A DNA stretch of 64,000 nt from Bacteroidia bacterium. GTDB taxonomy: Bacteria; Bacteroidota; Bacteroidia; Cytophagales; Cyclobacteriaceae. Numbering within the stretch: the first letter of the stretch is position 1; each line of letters opens with the position of its first letter. Where the stretch lies: assembly GCA_030425425.1 (NCBI GenBank), contig JAUIAO010000016.1, forward strand, positions 1 through 64,000, given 5' to 3'. Below the pieces are notes generated by a model. It saw only the letters and a list, made by a program, of their open reading frames with translations. It had not been told where the DNA came from and ran no database searches. Shown piece after piece: positions 8,689-16,023 of this stretch. The position numbers and the translations under genes are program-made.

Positions 8689-9003
8689 TTATTCCTCAAT
8701 TCTGAATATTTTCCATTTAGCGCCAATTGATTCTCTTTCAGCACATAATCCTTCTGGCATCTCGAAAAGGTCATTTATAGTGCTATCTAATTCTGTGGCT
8801 TGTTTAAGGCTGATAATTTTAATATTTGAATCGGTATGACCATCTATTCCACACAAAAATTGCCAACTGGAATCAACACTATCATGACTTACAAATAATA
8901 TAGGCTTTTCCTTATTCATAACATGATCACAGGTAAAACAAGCTGTGTTTTCCTTTTCTCTAAATCTATATTCTGACTTTTTCCCAAATAATCTTTTTAG
9001 CAT
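8689..9003 (-). CDS. Small conserved hypothetical protein
   Basis: 104 residues, no signal peptide or membrane helix. The sequence is orderly: a basic N-terminus (MLKRLFGKK), a CFTCDHVM segment with two Cys and a His that could bind metal, then ILFVSHDSVDSSWQFLCG and a C-terminal MPEGLCAERESIGAKW. I have seen similar ~100-residue proteins (xVSHDxxGxWQFLCG ... GxxAERxxIxxKW) in many bacteria, perhaps near DUF2185, but cannot name the family with confidence. It lies downstream of the orphan antitoxin, where a toxin gene would normally be, but does not look like a RelE/ParE toxin. Confidence 0.65.
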   Translation of the reverse strand: MLKRLFGKKSEYRFREKENTACFTCDHVMNKEKPILFVSHDSVDSSWQFLCGIDGHTDSNIKIISLKQATELDSTINDLFEMPEGLCAERESIGAKWKIFRIEE

Positions 9004-9658: not shown

Positions 9659-10228
9659 TTATAGCAAACCTATTTTTCTCATCTCCCAAAAGCACCTCTC
9701 TGTAGCATCAATATCTACTGAAGCATCATGGGCTTCTTCGAAATCAACTCCAAAAAGTTTAATATGCAATTCTGAGAGTTTGGGCCATTTATATCCATAC
9801 AAGCCTGGAAGTTTGCAAAAATTGGTTGATGATTGCATCGTGCATATTTTTCGTTTTTTATTGAAATTACTCTGGATATTCTTTCTTATTAATTCTGCTC
9901 CTAATATCTTCTCATCAAAACTAATATTATGGGCAACAATAAAACCCGCTCGACCAGCTAACTCATTAAACTGGGTTAGTACTTGTTCAAGATCTTTCCC
10001 TTCATTTATTGCCTGCTCAGTTGTTATTCCATGAACATTAGATGCGTCAATTGGTATTTGATAGTTTTCCGGAATTATAATATGGCTTGCTGACTCTATT
10101 CTATTTCCATATTTATCACTCAATATCCAAGCAATCTGAACCAATCTAGGCCAATTATTCAAGTCTGTAACTGGAGCTTTCCAATTTTTAGGCACACCAG
10201 TTGTTTCTGTGTCGAAAAACAAATACAT
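9659..10228 (-). CDS. DnaQ-like 3'-5' exonuclease (DEDDh)
   Basis: 189 residues, a bare exonuclease domain. Motif I is FDTETTG (residues 5-11), motif II HNISFDEKILGAEL, and motif III HDASVDIDATERC with the His and Asp of the DEDDh type. Such enzymes remove 3' nucleotides from DNA or RNA using two metal ions. It is last in a run SIR2, HerA, exonuclease, 37 bases after HerA, so probably co-transcribed. It could be an extra nuclease of that defence cassette or an unrelated housekeeping-like exonuclease; the sequence alone does not decide. Confidence 0.85.
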   Translation of the reverse strand: MYLFFDTETTGVPKNWKAPVTDLNNWPRLVQIAWILSDKYGNRIESASHIIIPENYQIPIDASNVHGITTEQAINEGKDLEQVLTQFNELAGRAGFIVAHNISFDEKILGAELIRKNIQSNFNKKRKICTMQSSTNFCKLPGLYGYKWPKLSELHIKLFGVDFEEAHDASVDIDATERCFWEMRKIGLL

Positions 10229-10265: not shown

Positions 10266-11945
10266 TTACTTCTGTTGTTTTCTTAATGCTTCCACGGCAT
10301 TTTCAAAACCTTTTTCGGTTTTCTCAGAAGACCATTCGTCCCAGAAATCAATAGTTGCACTATTTGGAGCTATTGTAGGTTTATCTATTTTCACTCTACT
10401 AGGTAATAAGGAAGCGTCTCCAACTATCAAGCTTTCTCCAATATCCAATATTGGAAGTAATTCTGAAAAGTCTCCTAAATTATCTGGAAATAGTCTTTTT
10501 ATTACATTTTGATCATCAGGATTTGTCAGTCTCATGGCAACAAAATTCCCACATTGGCTTAAGATTGTTTTATTCACATCTGAAGGCCTTTGGCTAATTA
10601 CAACTAATGATATCCCATATTTTCTACCCTCCTTCGCAATTCTTTCAAAGCTTTGTAAACCTTTTTCTTCCATACCTCCCTTTATCTTTGAAGGAATATA
10701 TAGATGAGCTTCATCACAGAATAATGCTATGGGATGCCTTTTATCTTCTTCCATCCATTGTTGAATAGAAAAAACGAGCCTACCTATTAAACCTGTTATT
10801 AAAGGAAGAATATCAGATGGAACTTCAGAGAAGTCAATAATTTTCAATCCTTTTTCATTGCCAAAGTCCATAAGTTTACTGATAAGAGAAATAAACCAAT
10901 CGTACTTCAATAAATCTTCACTTGAATTAAAAAGAAAGTTCAATCTTTTATCAGCCTGTTTGCTTTTTAAACGCTGAATGAATCTGGTTAATTTTCCATA
11001 TAAAGGACCTTGTTTCTCACTCCTTGCTCCTGGAACCATTTCAGTATCGATAGATTCTAATTCAGAAAGGACCTCTGAAATTCTAAAAGGAATAGGACTT
11101 TCAACGGTAAAATTGTCTAGCACTTCTTGTTTGCTCTCTTCGTTGAGCACTAATTTTTTGTACTTGATTATAAGATCAAAAAGTGCTCTTGATTGATTTG
11201 GAGCATTAGCATCGCTTCGATCAAGAAGTAAAGCTTCCATCTCTTCATAGGATAATAACCAATATGGCAGGAAAATGGTGTTTTCATCACTTGGCTGATC
11301 CGAAGGCCCAGAAATTTTAAGCAAAGTTGTATTTGGTAAATCTTTGAGTGATTTGTATTCCCCATGTAGATCAAACACTATACTATTTAAAGACTTAAGA
11401 GTTGTAGCTTTCTGAAGAATATTTGCCACTGTCCAGGATTTACCTGAACCAGTTCCCCCTACAATTACAGCATGTCTTTGAAAAAATTTATTACCATCCA
11501 GATTGGCATCTGATATTTCAGAAATTGTGTATTTCCCTATTTTTAAAGGATAGTCGCTATTCGATGATATGATATTCATAAACTTTGACAATTCTTCACC
11601 TTGCAACAAAAAACAGTCCGCATCTATACTCGGAACTGTATTAAGTGTTCGCTTAAAAACGTTTCTCTCCATTCCACTAATTTCCAATAAAGTTCCAACC
11701 AAGTTTACCTTTATAAGATTTTCAACAATAAAGTCAGGCTCACTTCTATCATCAATCTTTTCTGCAATCGCCTTACGAACAATTTTGGAAATCAAACCGA
11801 TAATTTTCTCACCAGTCTTGGTTGACCTTATTTGTACAATTTGATTTACTTGTACACTATTTAAAAACTCTTCTTTTTCAACTTTTATTGAGATACTACC
11901 TGTATCCACACTTTGAACTTTCCCTATTAATGCTTCTGAATCCAT
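10266..11945 (-). CDS. HerA-like DNA translocase/ATPase (SIR2-HerA defence cassette)
   Basis: About 559 residues. An N-terminal HAS-barrel-like beta region (VQSVDTGSISIKVEKEEFL) leads to a HerA/FtsK-type motor: Walker A GGTGSGKSWT, Walker B ALFCDEAHLY, sensor VVISQRPSDVNKT, and a C-terminal Arg-containing segment LTNPDDQNVIKRLF. HerA motors form hexameric rings; partnered with SIR2 proteins they form a known antiphage system. An upstream TTG (11981) would overlap the SIR2 gene by 34 bases; the ATG at 11945 lies two bases after the SIR2 stop and is preferred. Base composition is clearly A+T-richer than most of the window, suggesting acquisition. Confidence 0.88.
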   Translation of the reverse strand: MDSEALIGKVQSVDTGSISIKVEKEEFLNSVQVNQIVQIRSTKTGEKIIGLISKIVRKAIAEKIDDRSEPDFIVENLIKVNLVGTLLEISGMERNVFKRTLNTVPSIDADCFLLQGEELSKFMNIISSNSDYPLKIGKYTISEISDANLDGNKFFQRHAVIVGGTGSGKSWTVANILQKATTLKSLNSIVFDLHGEYKSLKDLPNTTLLKISGPSDQPSDENTIFLPYWLLSYEEMEALLLDRSDANAPNQSRALFDLIIKYKKLVLNEESKQEVLDNFTVESPIPFRISEVLSELESIDTEMVPGARSEKQGPLYGKLTRFIQRLKSKQADKRLNFLFNSSEDLLKYDWFISLISKLMDFGNEKGLKIIDFSEVPSDILPLITGLIGRLVFSIQQWMEEDKRHPIALFCDEAHLYIPSKIKGGMEEKGLQSFERIAKEGRKYGISLVVISQRPSDVNKTILSQCGNFVAMRLTNPDDQNVIKRLFPDNLGDFSELLPILDIGESLIVGDASLLPSRVKIDKPTIAPNSATIDFWDEWSSEKTEKGFENAVEALRKQQK

Positions 11946-11947
11946 AA

Positions 11948-12913
11948 CTATATAATCTCTAAGAATTTTTGGAGTTGCCAATAATCACCTTCTATTATTT
12001 CTGTTACCTCTTTTGCTGAGGAGTTTTCTTTATATATCACCTTGGTTTTGGAAGGAGTTTCTTCCATGAGAACATATTTTTCAGCGTTCTTTAACTCCTC
12101 ATAGGTGCTTTCTGTAATTTTTTTTGTTATTAACACTACCGGGGTACCCTGTTTTACTTTTGCCTTAATCTTTGGAGTTAAATGTTCATCGTTAAATCCA
12201 AATCCGATAACAAGAAAACTAGATGCAGTCTTGATCAAACTATCAGCTTTTTGAATTAATTCTCGATAAGGACTATTATATGCTTCCTGATATTTATTCT
12301 TCCCTGGTGCAATGATTTGAGGGGTTTCTTGATTACTGTTAAAGGGCAAGAAACGAATTTCCCCATCTATTTCGAACCAATTTAGTGAGCCATGTACTTT
12401 AACTACGTTAACATTTTTTTCAACAAAACTGCTTTCATCAAAGATTGAAAGAGCTTTTCCATTAAAACCGTCTGTATAAGGGAAATTATAATATGATAAT
12501 ATGTATTCAAGAACCCTATCATAGTTTGTAGTAACTATATTGACAGTTCTAGGGTGAGGATCCATGAATTTTTCAATAAGCGAACGAATTCCTCCAAACT
12601 CTTTTATATCGTTAGAAAGTATTTTATCAAGTACTGAAGAATCTGCTTCATTCACTTTTTCCCAGATTACCTTCCTAATCTTAGGCATCCATGTCAGATA
12701 TTTTTCCTTTCCTAATTCAATTTCCAAATTCTCACTTGCTAAATCAAAGCCTTCAACTTTTGATTTTAGTTCTTCATTCAAATCCCACATGCTTGGCAAT
12801 CCGAGCGAAGCTGTAGCTCCTGATCCCCAAACTATTAAAGGAGGTGTTTTTAGGAAAGTTTGTATAACCTGAAAAATTTTCTCTTTTGATTGCTCGTAAA
12901 TGTCAAATATCAT
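11948..12913 (-). CDS. SIR2-family protein (defence NADase candidate)
   Basis: 321 residues. The Rossmann NAD-binding signature VWGSGATASLGLPSMWDL is near residue 28, followed by TTNYDRVLEYIL, VKVHGSLNW with a likely catalytic His, and FLVIGFGFNDEHL. These are the marks of the divergent SIR2 domains found in antiphage systems, which usually degrade NAD rather than deacetylate proteins. No extra domain is visible. It is the first gene of the cassette and is followed after two bases by HerA. A 60-base sample (12241-12300) has 16 G/C by my count, much lower than neighbours. The 21-bp repeat array lies just upstream and may hold its promoter. Confidence 0.87.
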   Translation of the reverse strand: MIFDIYEQSKEKIFQVIQTFLKTPPLIVWGSGATASLGLPSMWDLNEELKSKVEGFDLASENLEIELGKEKYLTWMPKIRKVIWEKVNEADSSVLDKILSNDIKEFGGIRSLIEKFMDPHPRTVNIVTTNYDRVLEYILSYYNFPYTDGFNGKALSIFDESSFVEKNVNVVKVHGSLNWFEIDGEIRFLPFNSNQETPQIIAPGKNKYQEAYNSPYRELIQKADSLIKTASSFLVIGFGFNDEHLTPKIKAKVKQGTPVVLITKKITESTYEELKNAEKYVLMEETPSKTKVIYKENSSAKEVTEIIEGDYWQLQKFLEII

Positions 12914-12935
12914 ATTCGATCAAAGTCAATTAGTA

Positions 12936-13085
12936 TTAATCCAAACCACTCACACCCCCTTCTGGGACTCCTTCACCCCTCTCTGGGGGTAAAATGCTGA
13001 GTTCTGGGGCATCTATCACCTTTTCTGGGGGTGGATTGAGCATCTCTGGGGGTCTATTAAATGGTTCTGGGGGTGAAAAATTCAT
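12936..13085 (-). CDS. Possible 49-residue Pro-Glu heptad-repeat peptide
   Basis: This frame through the 21-bp array is open from an ATG at 13085 to TAA at 12936. It encodes six heptads each ending in PE: PPE, PPE, PPE, APE, PPE, VPE, with four unrelated residues between them. The 21-base period keeps any frame open, and the plus strand is also open (SGG heptads), so coding is not proven. I list it so that it can be tested; a non-coding role for the array is at least as likely. Confidence 0.22.
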   Translation of the reverse strand: MNFSPPEPFNRPPEMLNPPPEKVIDAPELSILPPERGEGVPEGGVSGLD

Positions 13086-13113
13086 TTCTGGGCTATAAAC
13101 TATCGCTCTGGGC
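12961..13113. repeat. Array of TCTGGGGGT cores with exact 21-bp period
   Basis: The core TCTGGG(GGT) starts at 12961, 12982, 13003, 13024, 13045, 13066 and 13087: seven units exactly 21 bases apart. An eighth, at 13107, is 20 bases on and forms one arm of the palindrome. The 12-base stretches between cores are unrelated to each other. Twenty-one base pairs is two turns of B-DNA, so the cores would lie on one face of the helix. It sits between the start of the SIR2 gene and the end of the 13.1-13.8 kb gene. Confidence 0.92.
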
Positions 13114-13130
13114 GCCCAGAACGATAGTTT
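13097..13130. repeat. 34-bp near-perfect palindrome containing the array core
   Basis: Arms 13097-13113 and 13114-13130 are complementary over 17 bp with one mismatch (C13106 against A13121) and no loop. The centre is TCTGGGC|GCCCAGA, so two array cores face each other. It begins eight bases past the stop of the 13139-13834 gene. It is not followed by a T-run on either strand, so a simple intrinsic terminator is unlikely. Cruciform extrusion or dimer binding is possible. Confidence 0.9.
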
Positions 13131-13138
13131 CTTTGGTG

Positions 13139-13834
13139 TTAATGTCTAAAATAGGAACTGCCGTATCCTTTAACTCGCTCTGGTTGTTTTCTAAGTGCAT
13201 AGCGCCCCGCCTTACGCACCTTATCCACCGTTTCCTTTAGCAGGGTATATGCCTGGTCGCGGATGGTCTTTTCTTCTTTCTTGGTGTCTTCTCCATTCAC
13301 CTGTGCCAGTAAGTTGCGCATTTCCTCAGCCAGACGATCCGCTGTGTCCAGCTGGGTGTGGTCAAAGTTGATGGCCGTGAGTTCGGCCTTATGGTCTTTG
13401 CCCAGTACGGAGAGCTCCACCAGGTCCTGAATCATGTCTTCATGGCCTGTGCCTTCTTTGATAGCGTCCACTTTGGCCAGCAGTTCTTCATTGCCATCAA
13501 AGGCATAGTCGAAGGCTGCTTCCAGATCGCTTCTCAGTTCATAGGCGGCCGGGCTTTGTGCATCCCAGAGCTTTTTCGCTTCTTCCTGGCTGTAGCGCTC
13601 CTTCATCCATACAGCCTGTGCGTGGCTGAGTGCCCCCGCTCCCTGCTCCAGTAAGTCAAGTGAGGATTCTGGAAGCCCTACCCCCATCAGTGCCGCCTGG
13701 TCGTCAGACGCCCATTCTTTGAGATTGACCGCTTCTTGTATGAATACATCGATGGGAATGTTGGGAGTCTTGATGTCCTCTGCCGCGATCTGCTGGATCT
13801 GTGGCAAAAGTGTTTGATAGTCTGTGAGTGACAT
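13139..13834 (-). CDS. Unrecognised helical protein next to the 21-bp array
   Basis: About 231 residues from MSLTDYQTLL; an ATG at 13882 would add 16 residues (MVWGARLAAIIKKEQL). It is predicted largely helical and acidic, with a basic C-terminus (VDKVRKAGRYALRKQPERVKGYGSSYFRH) that could touch nucleic acid. No signal peptide, membrane helix or catalytic motif is seen. Base composition differs from its surroundings: 32 of 60 G/C in 13381-13440 by my count against 16 of 60 in a SIR2 sample. I recall similar proteins with a GYxSSYF ending in other Bacteroidota but know no function. The palindrome and array follow directly. Confidence 0.75.
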   Translation of the reverse strand: MSLTDYQTLLPQIQQIAAEDIKTPNIPIDVFIQEAVNLKEWASDDQAALMGVGLPESSLDLLEQGAGALSHAQAVWMKERYSQEEAKKLWDAQSPAAYELRSDLEAAFDYAFDGNEELLAKVDAIKEGTGHEDMIQDLVELSVLGKDHKAELTAINFDHTQLDTADRLAEEMRNLLAQVNGEDTKKEEKTIRDQAYTLLKETVDKVRKAGRYALRKQPERVKGYGSSYFRH

Positions 13835-13882
13835 AAGCTGTTCTTTTTTGATTATGGCAGCTAATCTAGCACCCCATACCAT

Positions 13883-14389
13883 TAATTCCTATACCCACTT
13901 TATGGTAGTTTTTTGTGTAACGTGTTGTGATTAGAAGAAAAAGTATAAAGATTCCGGGAAACTGATGAAAATCATGTGATCGCTGAACGCTATTCGCTCT
14001 ACGCCCTACGCTTTTCACTGTCTGGCGTGAGGTGAACTTTGGTTAGCCATTAGCGAAAGACGTATGGGATTCATGAGGTCGCGAATCACAGGGAAAAGAG
14101 TTATTAGTGAAAAGTAAACAATTCTTTCCGTAAGTCACTCCAGGGATTTCTGAGGCACGAAAAAAATACCGGGGAGTCTGGGAAAGTGTTTGCATCGTCA
14201 TCAAAGGCACGAGTGTGGACACTCGCGCCAGCTAGAGGAAATAGATTCTTCCTTTCAGTCAGAATGACGGCTCGCAAAGAGTACGAAAAGCGTAAGGCGA
14301 ACTGCGGTTAGCGATTAGCGTATGGGAATCGTGAGGACACGAACCACGGCGAAAAAAGCAATAAGCGAATTGCGATAAGCGTAAAGCGA
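13883..14389. repeat. Intergenic repeat region with REP-like composite, copy 2
   Basis: No gene is supported in this ~500-base stretch. It holds element A copy 2 (14138-14186) and element B copy 2 (14205-14236, with the perfect hairpin CGAGTGT-GG-ACACTCG), in the same order and orientation as at 8.5-8.7 kb. It also holds two related direct copies of a GGTTAGC(C/G)ATTAGCG ... TATGGGA(T/A)TC(A/G)TGAGG block, near 14042-14090 and 14304-14350. Confidence 0.7.
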
Positions 14390-15401: not shown

Positions 15402-16023
15402 TTGGTTGCGGGTTTCTTTGGGTTTCTGAGTTGCGGGTTGGTTGGTTTTAAGTACTATGTGTGTTGAGGTTCTGAGTTGCGGGATAGTTGGTTGCGGGTT
15501 CTATGGGGTACGGTTTTTTTGGGGTACGGGATATTCAGTTTCTCGGGATATTCCAGTTCTTTTCTACATATTGGATGAACTTATTAATCATTTTACCAAG
15601 GTTGTTGTATGCTGTGACTAGTTCTGATGCTTCATCTGATAATTCAGGATATATCTTTTGTAATTTGCGCAGATGATTGACAGTTTCATCGTTGCTAGAA
15701 TGAGCATAAATTAAAAACTTCAAAAAGTCATTCTTATATCTCCTTCGGCCATAACCTTCTACAATATTTGAATTGACGGAATCGGCTGATCTCCTCAGTT
15801 GACTGCCTAACTCGTAAGTTTCATATTTTGGTAATTTCAGCGAATAATGGTGAGTTCTCAAAAACAGATCGAAGGATACCTTATAAATATCAAGTTCGAG
15901 ATATGATTTAGCCATATGTGAAAATAATGAATAGCTTCTTTACAGCGAAACATGTTAACCAAAAACCAAATAACTCATTAACCCGAAACCCTTAAAACTC
16001 GAAACTATAAAACCCGCAACCAA
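15402..16023. mobile_element. Putative repeat-flanked unit carrying a four-helix-bundle gene
   Basis: The 14-base sequence TTGGTTGCGGGTTT at 15402-15415 is perfectly inverted at 16010-16023. Inside these ends are G/T-rich imperfect repeats (plus strand on the left, minus strand on the right) that face each other around the gene at 15535-15915. No transposase is present and I see no target-site duplication. The inward-facing arrangement suggests a unit that moves or spreads with help from elsewhere; this is inference. Confidence 0.5.
15535..15915 (-). CDS. Four-helix-bundle protein (S23/IVP family)
   Basis: 126 residues, typical length. The family was named after proteins encoded in 23S rRNA intervening sequences and includes relatives of Avd from diversity-generating retroelements. 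Visible signatures are ELDIYKVSFDLFLRTHHYS in helix 1, the conserved QLRRSADSVNSNIVEGYGRR in helix 2, and FLKFLIYAHSSNDETVNHL in helix 3. The last codons (NIPRN) already run into the flanking repeat sequence. No reverse transcriptase or rRNA gene is nearby, so its job here is unknown. The flanking inverted repeats are described separately. Confidence 0.88.
   Translation of the reverse strand: MAKSYLELDIYKVSFDLFLRTHHYSLKLPKYETYELGSQLRRSADSVNSNIVEGYGRRRYKNDFLKFLIYAHSSNDETVNHLRKLQKIYPELSDEASELVTAYNNLGKMINKFIQYVEKNWNIPRN

Follow-up and report, generated by a model that had tools for sequence, protein, structure and literature searches.

What is the role of a regularly spaced array of short DNA words lying between a defence gene and a gene that resembles nothing recognised? 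The question is raised by the window, i.e. the whole stretch of 64,000 nucleotides analysed here, for which the first-pass annotation had described seven TCTGGG cores at 21-bp intervals and an eighth at 20 bp. The description holds: at 12961–13112 the cores start on the plus strand at 12961, 12982, 13003, 13024, 13045, 13066, 13087 and 13107, that is, six steps of 21 bp followed by one of 20 bp, and the last core doubles as one arm of a palindrome.

12961..13112, no strand assigned: eight-core TCTGGG array (CCCAGA on the gene strand), steps 21, 21, 21, 21, 21, 21, 20
13097..13130, no strand assigned: near-perfect 34-bp palindrome centred on TCTGGG-CG-CCCAGA, the dyad at which the array begins to extend in the direction opposite to the gene

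The 9-mer TCTGGGGGT is complete in four of the eight cores, the invariant portion being TCTGGG. When the 64 kb were scanned for chains of 6-mers containing at least three different bases at steps of 13–40 bp, TCTGGG gave the longest fixed-step chain (seven copies), and all unrelated chains of at least four stopped at four copies. Furthermore, the longest TCTGGG chain at 21 bp in 3000 Markov resamples of positions 12601–13400 comprised two copies, a length reached once. The 12-bp gaps had been called unrelated, which is close to what we find, though not perfectly so: their mean pairwise identity is 32% versus 26% in composition shuffles, and 54 of 2000 such shuffles reached the observed identity.

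The array forms the 3′ flank of an unrecognised gene that ends eight bases before the palindrome.

13139..13834, minus strand: gene for the putative array-binding protein, 231 aa, or 247 aa if translation started at a more upstream ATG
13142..13168, minus strand: C-terminal tail GYGSSYFRH, the part covarying with the array core among relatives

The protein has no match in Pfam, PADLOC or the solved structures of the PDB, and its best PHROGs match is a single one at E 0.033. No known DNA-binding fold was matched in Pfam or among PDB structures, and a low-confidence single-sequence model (mean pLDDT 49) is all-helical. The NCBIfam model NF052641 ('PQLLE family') gives a partial match at 149–221 (28 bits, E 1.6e-6); two members of the near family score 28 and 30 bits, below the curated cut-off of 80; the window protein is a distant relative of the PQLLE family. 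In an empty-site comparison within the genus, the neighbour gene had no match at E 1e-20 in four of five relatives, the fifth having only a 35% match. There was no protein match in 72,556 plasmid records and no match in 50,697 phage records, so that a phage or plasmid origin was rejected; 88 stretches with the pattern in IMG/VR yielded none that was confirmed. Copies of the family lie on contigs of 3.9–5.8 Mb in G141, G213, G229, G073 and G241. We consider it probable that the array and the gene form one locus, in which a DNA-binding protein is encoded beside an array of its own sites.

Homologues of the gene were found in 10 of 146 relatives, six of 390 genomes of the order, 14 of 28 genomes of chosen genera, one of 395 genomes of the class (the window's own genome) and two of 15 genomes of a second family, both already known; these search sets overlap. 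The family is patchy and, among the genomes searched, restricted to two families of the order. The idea that the same periodic arrangement would recur near homologues proved right for the spacing, as arrays with 20- or 21-bp steps lie downstream of the gene in 19 of 22 homologue loci, but not for the word, which changes between loci. The automatic test behind this count, a 5-mer chained at least four times in steps of 20, 21 or 41 bp within 600 bp downstream, was positive at 19 of 22 gene loci (L166, L167 and L225 failed) versus one of 496 control pieces, and upstream of the gene no chain exceeds two copies in the 22 loci. Among 28 downstream flanks, near-duplicates included, lag 21 ranks in the best three of 51 lags in 25; in the other three, lag 41 comes first twice and lag 20 once. 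Following in each of the 22 loci the 5-mer that chained best in 20/21/41-bp steps, we counted 155 unfiltered distances between successive cores, of which 88 are 21 bp, 38 are 20 bp, 16 are 40–42 bp and 13 take other values, with none of 19, 22 or 23 bp. Such distances fit two turns of DNA and do not fit a reading frame, which supports the earlier proposal that the cores are helically phased. Freely drifting spacing accompanied by decaying cores, named in advance as the pattern that would speak against selection on the array, was looked for in the relatives and is absent; the 20/21-bp steps hold.

The words in these arrays include CCCAGA, CCGGGA, GCAGGA, TCAGGA, CCATGG, CTACAGG, TGTTGTGA and others, and the 12–15 bp between cores carry little sequence information. 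A palindrome of the array's own core is present in 12 of the 22 loci, with one polarity throughout; in one further locus, L211, it is built from a different core, a TCAGGA hairpin standing beside a GCAGGA array, and the CATGG of L160 is too nearly self-palindromic to score. As a separate observation, the AT-rich motif AATATTATTTGG (at most one mismatch) occurs in nine of 22 downstream flanks versus eight of 496 control pieces, and in several of these loci it sits close to the distal end of the array.

The word of the window itself recurs rarely in comparable form. The strict three-core pattern has ten matches in the window's own genome, all within two arrays, one in the window and the other on contig C15. 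The two array regions show no blastn similarity to each other; core and period are kept and the gaps are not. On C15 there are in fact twin arrays (L009, 9660–9791 and about 9846–10062) next to a decayed remnant of the 3′ end of the unrecognised gene, with CCCAGA as the outer and CATGC as the inner core, which looks as if an older specificity was left standing. The strict TCTGGG pattern matched seven of 390 genomes of the family and, among the places listed, the gaps are unrelated solely in the window's genome (G000) and in G036. In the latter, ATCTGGG cores recur every 21 bp on contig C312 (L017, 9580–9690), and the two genes of the protein family found in this genome are on other contigs, C136 and C320, with different cores. 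A GTDB scan for four TCTGGG at 21 bp returned at least 116 stretches; the lowest gap identity among those listed is that of L079, on the same contig as the C312 array (0.47, six copies), followed by L146 (0.53) and L151 (0.56) with four copies each, and none of the 116 listed encodes a relative of the window protein (two HMMs, E 0.01). Checked against these stretches and the 390 family genomes, the window array was rejected as an ordinary tandem repeat.

If the core word differs between loci, does it follow the protein? With the cores read in the orientation of the gene or outward from the palindrome, we find YLN and YLD tails with TCAGGA (L174, L212, L222, L228, L230), YFR tails with GCAGGA (L161, L168, L211) and, in the window, with CCCAGA, a YFN tail with TTAGGA (L220), YH and YN tails with CCGGGA (L156, L165, L169, L175), YH tails also with ACAGGG (L164, L171, L176), HWA tails with CATGG (L160, L166), YYRK tails with CCTGTAG (L163, L213, L215) and YRSR tails with TGTTGTGA (L173, L219). 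The code is not strict: SQYHK accompanies ACAGGG in L164 and CCGGGA in L165, and YW tails accompany CATGC in L157 and GCAGGA in L172. Overall, the core covaries with the last approximately nine residues more closely than the remainder of the protein would predict. With the body controlled for, a partial Mantel test relating core to tail gave r 0.46 (22 loci, hand-oriented cores; 0 of 20,000 permutations as high), the same test with BLOSUM tail scores gave r 0.41 (4 of 20,000), and automatic k-mers gave r 0.38 (0 of 20,000). The analysis covered 22 of the 31 loci with a core, near-duplicates and broken copies being excluded (L157, L170, L171, L176, L213, L219, L222, L229 and L230); L159 offers no more than 44 bp of downstream sequence, and L177/L178, a split copy, was left out. 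The 395 class genomes and the 15 genomes of the second family provided no new members for an out-of-sample test of the tail–core relation. In an association scan, residue 115 in the body outscored residue 229, the best one in the tail, and since tail and array are neighbours in the DNA, some of the covariation can be imitated by linkage. However, locus pairs with the same core show no gap similarity in 23 of 27 cases, the similar pairs being close orthologues; the arrays of L163 and L213 fall largely outside the 400 bp compared, and without the seven pairs involving either of them the count is 17 of 20. Furthermore, the YFR residues are encoded by TAC TTT CGA in L168 and by TAT TTT AGG in L161 and L211. 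Unshared gaps and partly different tail codons argue against recent copying of one piece of DNA, and selection on both tail and core is the simpler reading. Given that the relatives keep the spacing and change the core, and that the core follows the C-terminal tail, the protein of the adjacent gene is the likely binder of the array.

Tail and array also appear to move as a unit. Contig C119 carries a paralogue with 95% identity, which is likewise followed by a palindrome and a 20/21-bp array, with CCGGGA as the core.

13187..14387, no strand assigned: block 92.5% identical to the paralogue on C119, ending before the C-terminal tail codons and the array

Similarity between the two loci spans −553 to +647 of the gene and is lost outside these limits, and 11 of the 13 differences between the proteins fall in residues 205–231, with two in residues 1–200. 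An imperfect direct repeat (74%; 14050–14111 and 14308–14369) lies in the upstream part of the shared stretch, ahead of the gene. Two contigs of G003, C65 and C93, have 24,826 bp in common at 99.88% identity; the first 566 nt of the gene are identical, differences cluster from nt 567, and the alignment breaks off about 20 nt short of the gene's end, after which tail, array (GCAGGA or CCGGGA) and flank differ. The G003 pair may represent a duplication, a mixture of two strain variants or switching. In two genomes, then, paralogues nearly identical up to the C-terminal tail carry different tails and arrays.

The array is flanked on its other side by defence genes, the start codon of the SIR2 gene lying 47 bp away.

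11948..12913, minus strand: SIR2-family defence gene, a neighbour and possible regulatory target
10266..11981, minus strand: HerA-like helicase of the SIR2-HerA pair, neighbour
9659..10228, minus strand: DEDDh exonuclease, neighbour, matching a PADLOC model listed as CRISPR-associated

Within three ORFs past the array, recognised defence or toxin–antitoxin genes were found in eight of 24 loci (67 array-side proteins, L241 excluded), in all eight of them in the direction of the gene: SIR2-HerA in the window, an Mrr-type nuclease in L158, KwaA/KwaB in L233 and DzbA/DzbB in L238, as well as HepT in L244, Vsr in L270 and GmrSD_N with HEPN in L271. Cas9 and Cas1 are presumably past the array in L231, where they were placed from the PADLOC tally and the recognisable start of the ORF. 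Most relatives have no recognised defence gene beyond the array. The opposite side (61 proteins; L234, which duplicates L233, and L241, where no ORFs lie on that side, were excluded) contains defence genes too, so no enrichment is claimed. NsnA and HEC-09 are among the PADLOC matches listed (the best 25 of 104 and 82 families). Elsewhere in the window, a gene of the 23S rRNA-intervening-sequence family (PF05635) lies at 15535–15915, two genes upstream, and an Imm33 immunity-protein domain at 8689–9003, near the defence genes.

Such neighbours raise the alternative that the gene body is a homologous anchor and that tail and array together are an attachment or boundary module used to exchange defence cargo, with the array as a site of recombination or synapsis, not of regulation. 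The breakpoints at the 3′ end of the gene in two genomes would fit, as would the eight loci with defence or toxin–antitoxin genes past the array and two partial copies: on C13, the last approximately 20 codons and a CCGGGA array are copied and followed by a Vsr endonuclease gene, and contig C30 of G172 has an array copy that lacks the gene and precedes GmrSD_N and HEPN genes. Yet the array-adjacent gene showed no recognisable integrase, transposase or catalytic motif, many loci have ordinary neighbours, defence genes occur on the other side as well, and plain homologous recombination between paralogues would yield the same breakpoints. We regard a recombination site as unlikely.

A slim chance attaches to the array acting as RNA, namely as the 3′ untranslated part of the transcript of the gene, bound by the protein. 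Arrays of the near family do lie downstream of the gene and in line with it, the RNA fold of 12930–13138 has a z-score of −5.9 relative to shuffles, for much of which the palindrome accounts, and no terminator-like site was found at the hairpin of the window itself. Against this, a two-turn spacing of 20 or 21 bp fits duplex DNA, and in L174, L211, L212, L222 and L230 the first hairpin, judged by eye, is followed by a T run and is terminator-like, placing it between gene and array. Moreover, Rfam covariance models at the gathering score gave no matches in the window, and distant relatives carry arrays upstream of the gene.

The latter relatives come from a search of the phylum with the PQLLE model, which identified 28 places in 11 of 296 genomes, two of them in the window genome itself. 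A lag-21 array accompanies 18 of the 26 other loci (2.2–3.6 kb each), the remaining eight showing none, and, apart from 42, no lag from 12 to 45 other than 21 was seen; the control, 77 pieces taken from the flanks of the near family, gave one positive. Profiles of the near family and of the PQLLE-like group align with a probability of 96.7 (hhalign, E 4.5e-10, 211 columns), which supports homology of the two groups, and the window locus falls within the wider PQLLE-like superfamily both by profile homology over the protein and by its array in a 21-bp register. Arrays of these distant relatives usually precede the gene and keep strictly to 21 bp, and the proteins end in different tails. In L199 (463–1400, reverse complement) and L202 (657–1200), blocks of differing units share one 21-bp register that runs on for hundreds of bases; one block of L202 reads CTTCTGGGGGGTGATT, near the window core.

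Some arrays of the distant relatives are near-perfect tandem repeats, as would be expected of a functionless minisatellite that diverged and whose covariation with the tail arose from adjacency in the DNA alone, an account with which the joint exchange of tail and array also agrees. It is nevertheless scarcely probable: diverged arrays retain the core and the 20/21-bp step even as their gaps become unrelated, loci with the same core mostly lack gap similarity, and lag 21 (with 42) stands alone beside the 26 distant relatives. Finally, a heptapeptide repeat (PPE-xxxx, minus strand, 21 bp being seven codons) can be dismissed, since, although the window array has one open minus-strand frame and the C15 array two of six, 19 of 22 loci, among them the window, have steps of 20 or 41 bp that break a frame, an open frame is found in 13 of 22 arrays versus 11.7 expected from gap shuffles, and among the long arrays of six relatives four have stops in all frames and two do not.

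We thus return to a protein that binds its own array; DNA binding, the tail as reader and cooperativity are what we infer from the patterns above. Each 6-bp core would represent one putative binding site, with sites two helical turns apart (20 or 21 bp) and one protein unit per two turns. Sites two turns apart all face the same side of the duplex, so that neighbouring protomers could touch. The short C-terminal tail after a conserved G-Y/F would read the core, and the palindrome of two inverted cores would be the likely nucleation point, from which the array would grow away with fixed polarity. A change of specificity might then be achieved by exchanging the C-terminal tail together with the array, the body of the gene staying in place. 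Our guess is that the resulting nucleoprotein array would serve as a local silencer or insulator, repressing its own gene and any defence operon behind it.

More broadly, and somewhat doubtfully, these loci could exemplify an undescribed class of proteins across the Bacteroidota that form nucleoprotein filaments on their own 21-bp DNA rulers, with an exchangeable C-terminal tail as a protein–DNA code, tail and array being swapped together and marking or silencing the edges of exchangeable defence islands. If true, this would be an uncharacterised class of sequence-specific DNA-binding proteins with specificity in about nine residues, and tails readable against at least ten natural core words would constitute a natural experiment in protein–DNA recognition. 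It would also provide a function for a phylum-wide family for which we found none and an entry point to how defence islands in Bacteroidota are organised or regulated.

A gene–array system of this kind was not found described in the titles and abstract openings listed from the open-access literature, and comparison with known repeats brings out both likenesses and differences. The TAACTGA heptamer repeats of Beggiatoaceae, Cyanobacteria and some Bacteroidetes resemble the window array in being short intergenic direct repeats found in Bacteroidetes too, but consist of one heptamer with indels in steps of 7 nt, and the sections consulted describe no cognate gene beside them (PMC4679880). BrickBuilt, a minisatellite MITE of Porphyromonas gingivalis, is likewise an intergenic tandem array in the same phylum but has a 23-nt unit without spacers and lies inside a MITE with inverted ends (PMC4596501). 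The NF052641 'PQLLE family' shares a remote protein relation and, at loci found by its model, 21-bp arrays, although the window protein scores far below the cut-off and arrays there are mostly upstream and strictly 21 bp. CRISPR arrays are accompanied by cas genes and have repeats of at least approximately 20 bp separated by unique spacers, whereas only 6 bp are invariant in the 21-bp unit of the window, and no cas1, cas2 or effector was among the window neighbours scanned. In RAYT/REP elements, each gene has its own cognate palindromic DNA word, a likeness to the present loci, in which, by contrast, no transposase is recognised and the sites form phased arrays. Plasmid iterons and direct-repeat centromeres of the parC/ParR type are series of short cognate sites, in helical register, next to the gene for the protein that binds them. 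Unlike these, the loci described here reside on multi-megabase contigs, often several per genome, keep only a 6-bp core that differs per locus, and have no recognised replication gene or partition motor, the protein itself being without a Pfam match; by analogy, however, the window locus shares their arrangement of short, helically phased sites beside a putative binding-protein gene.
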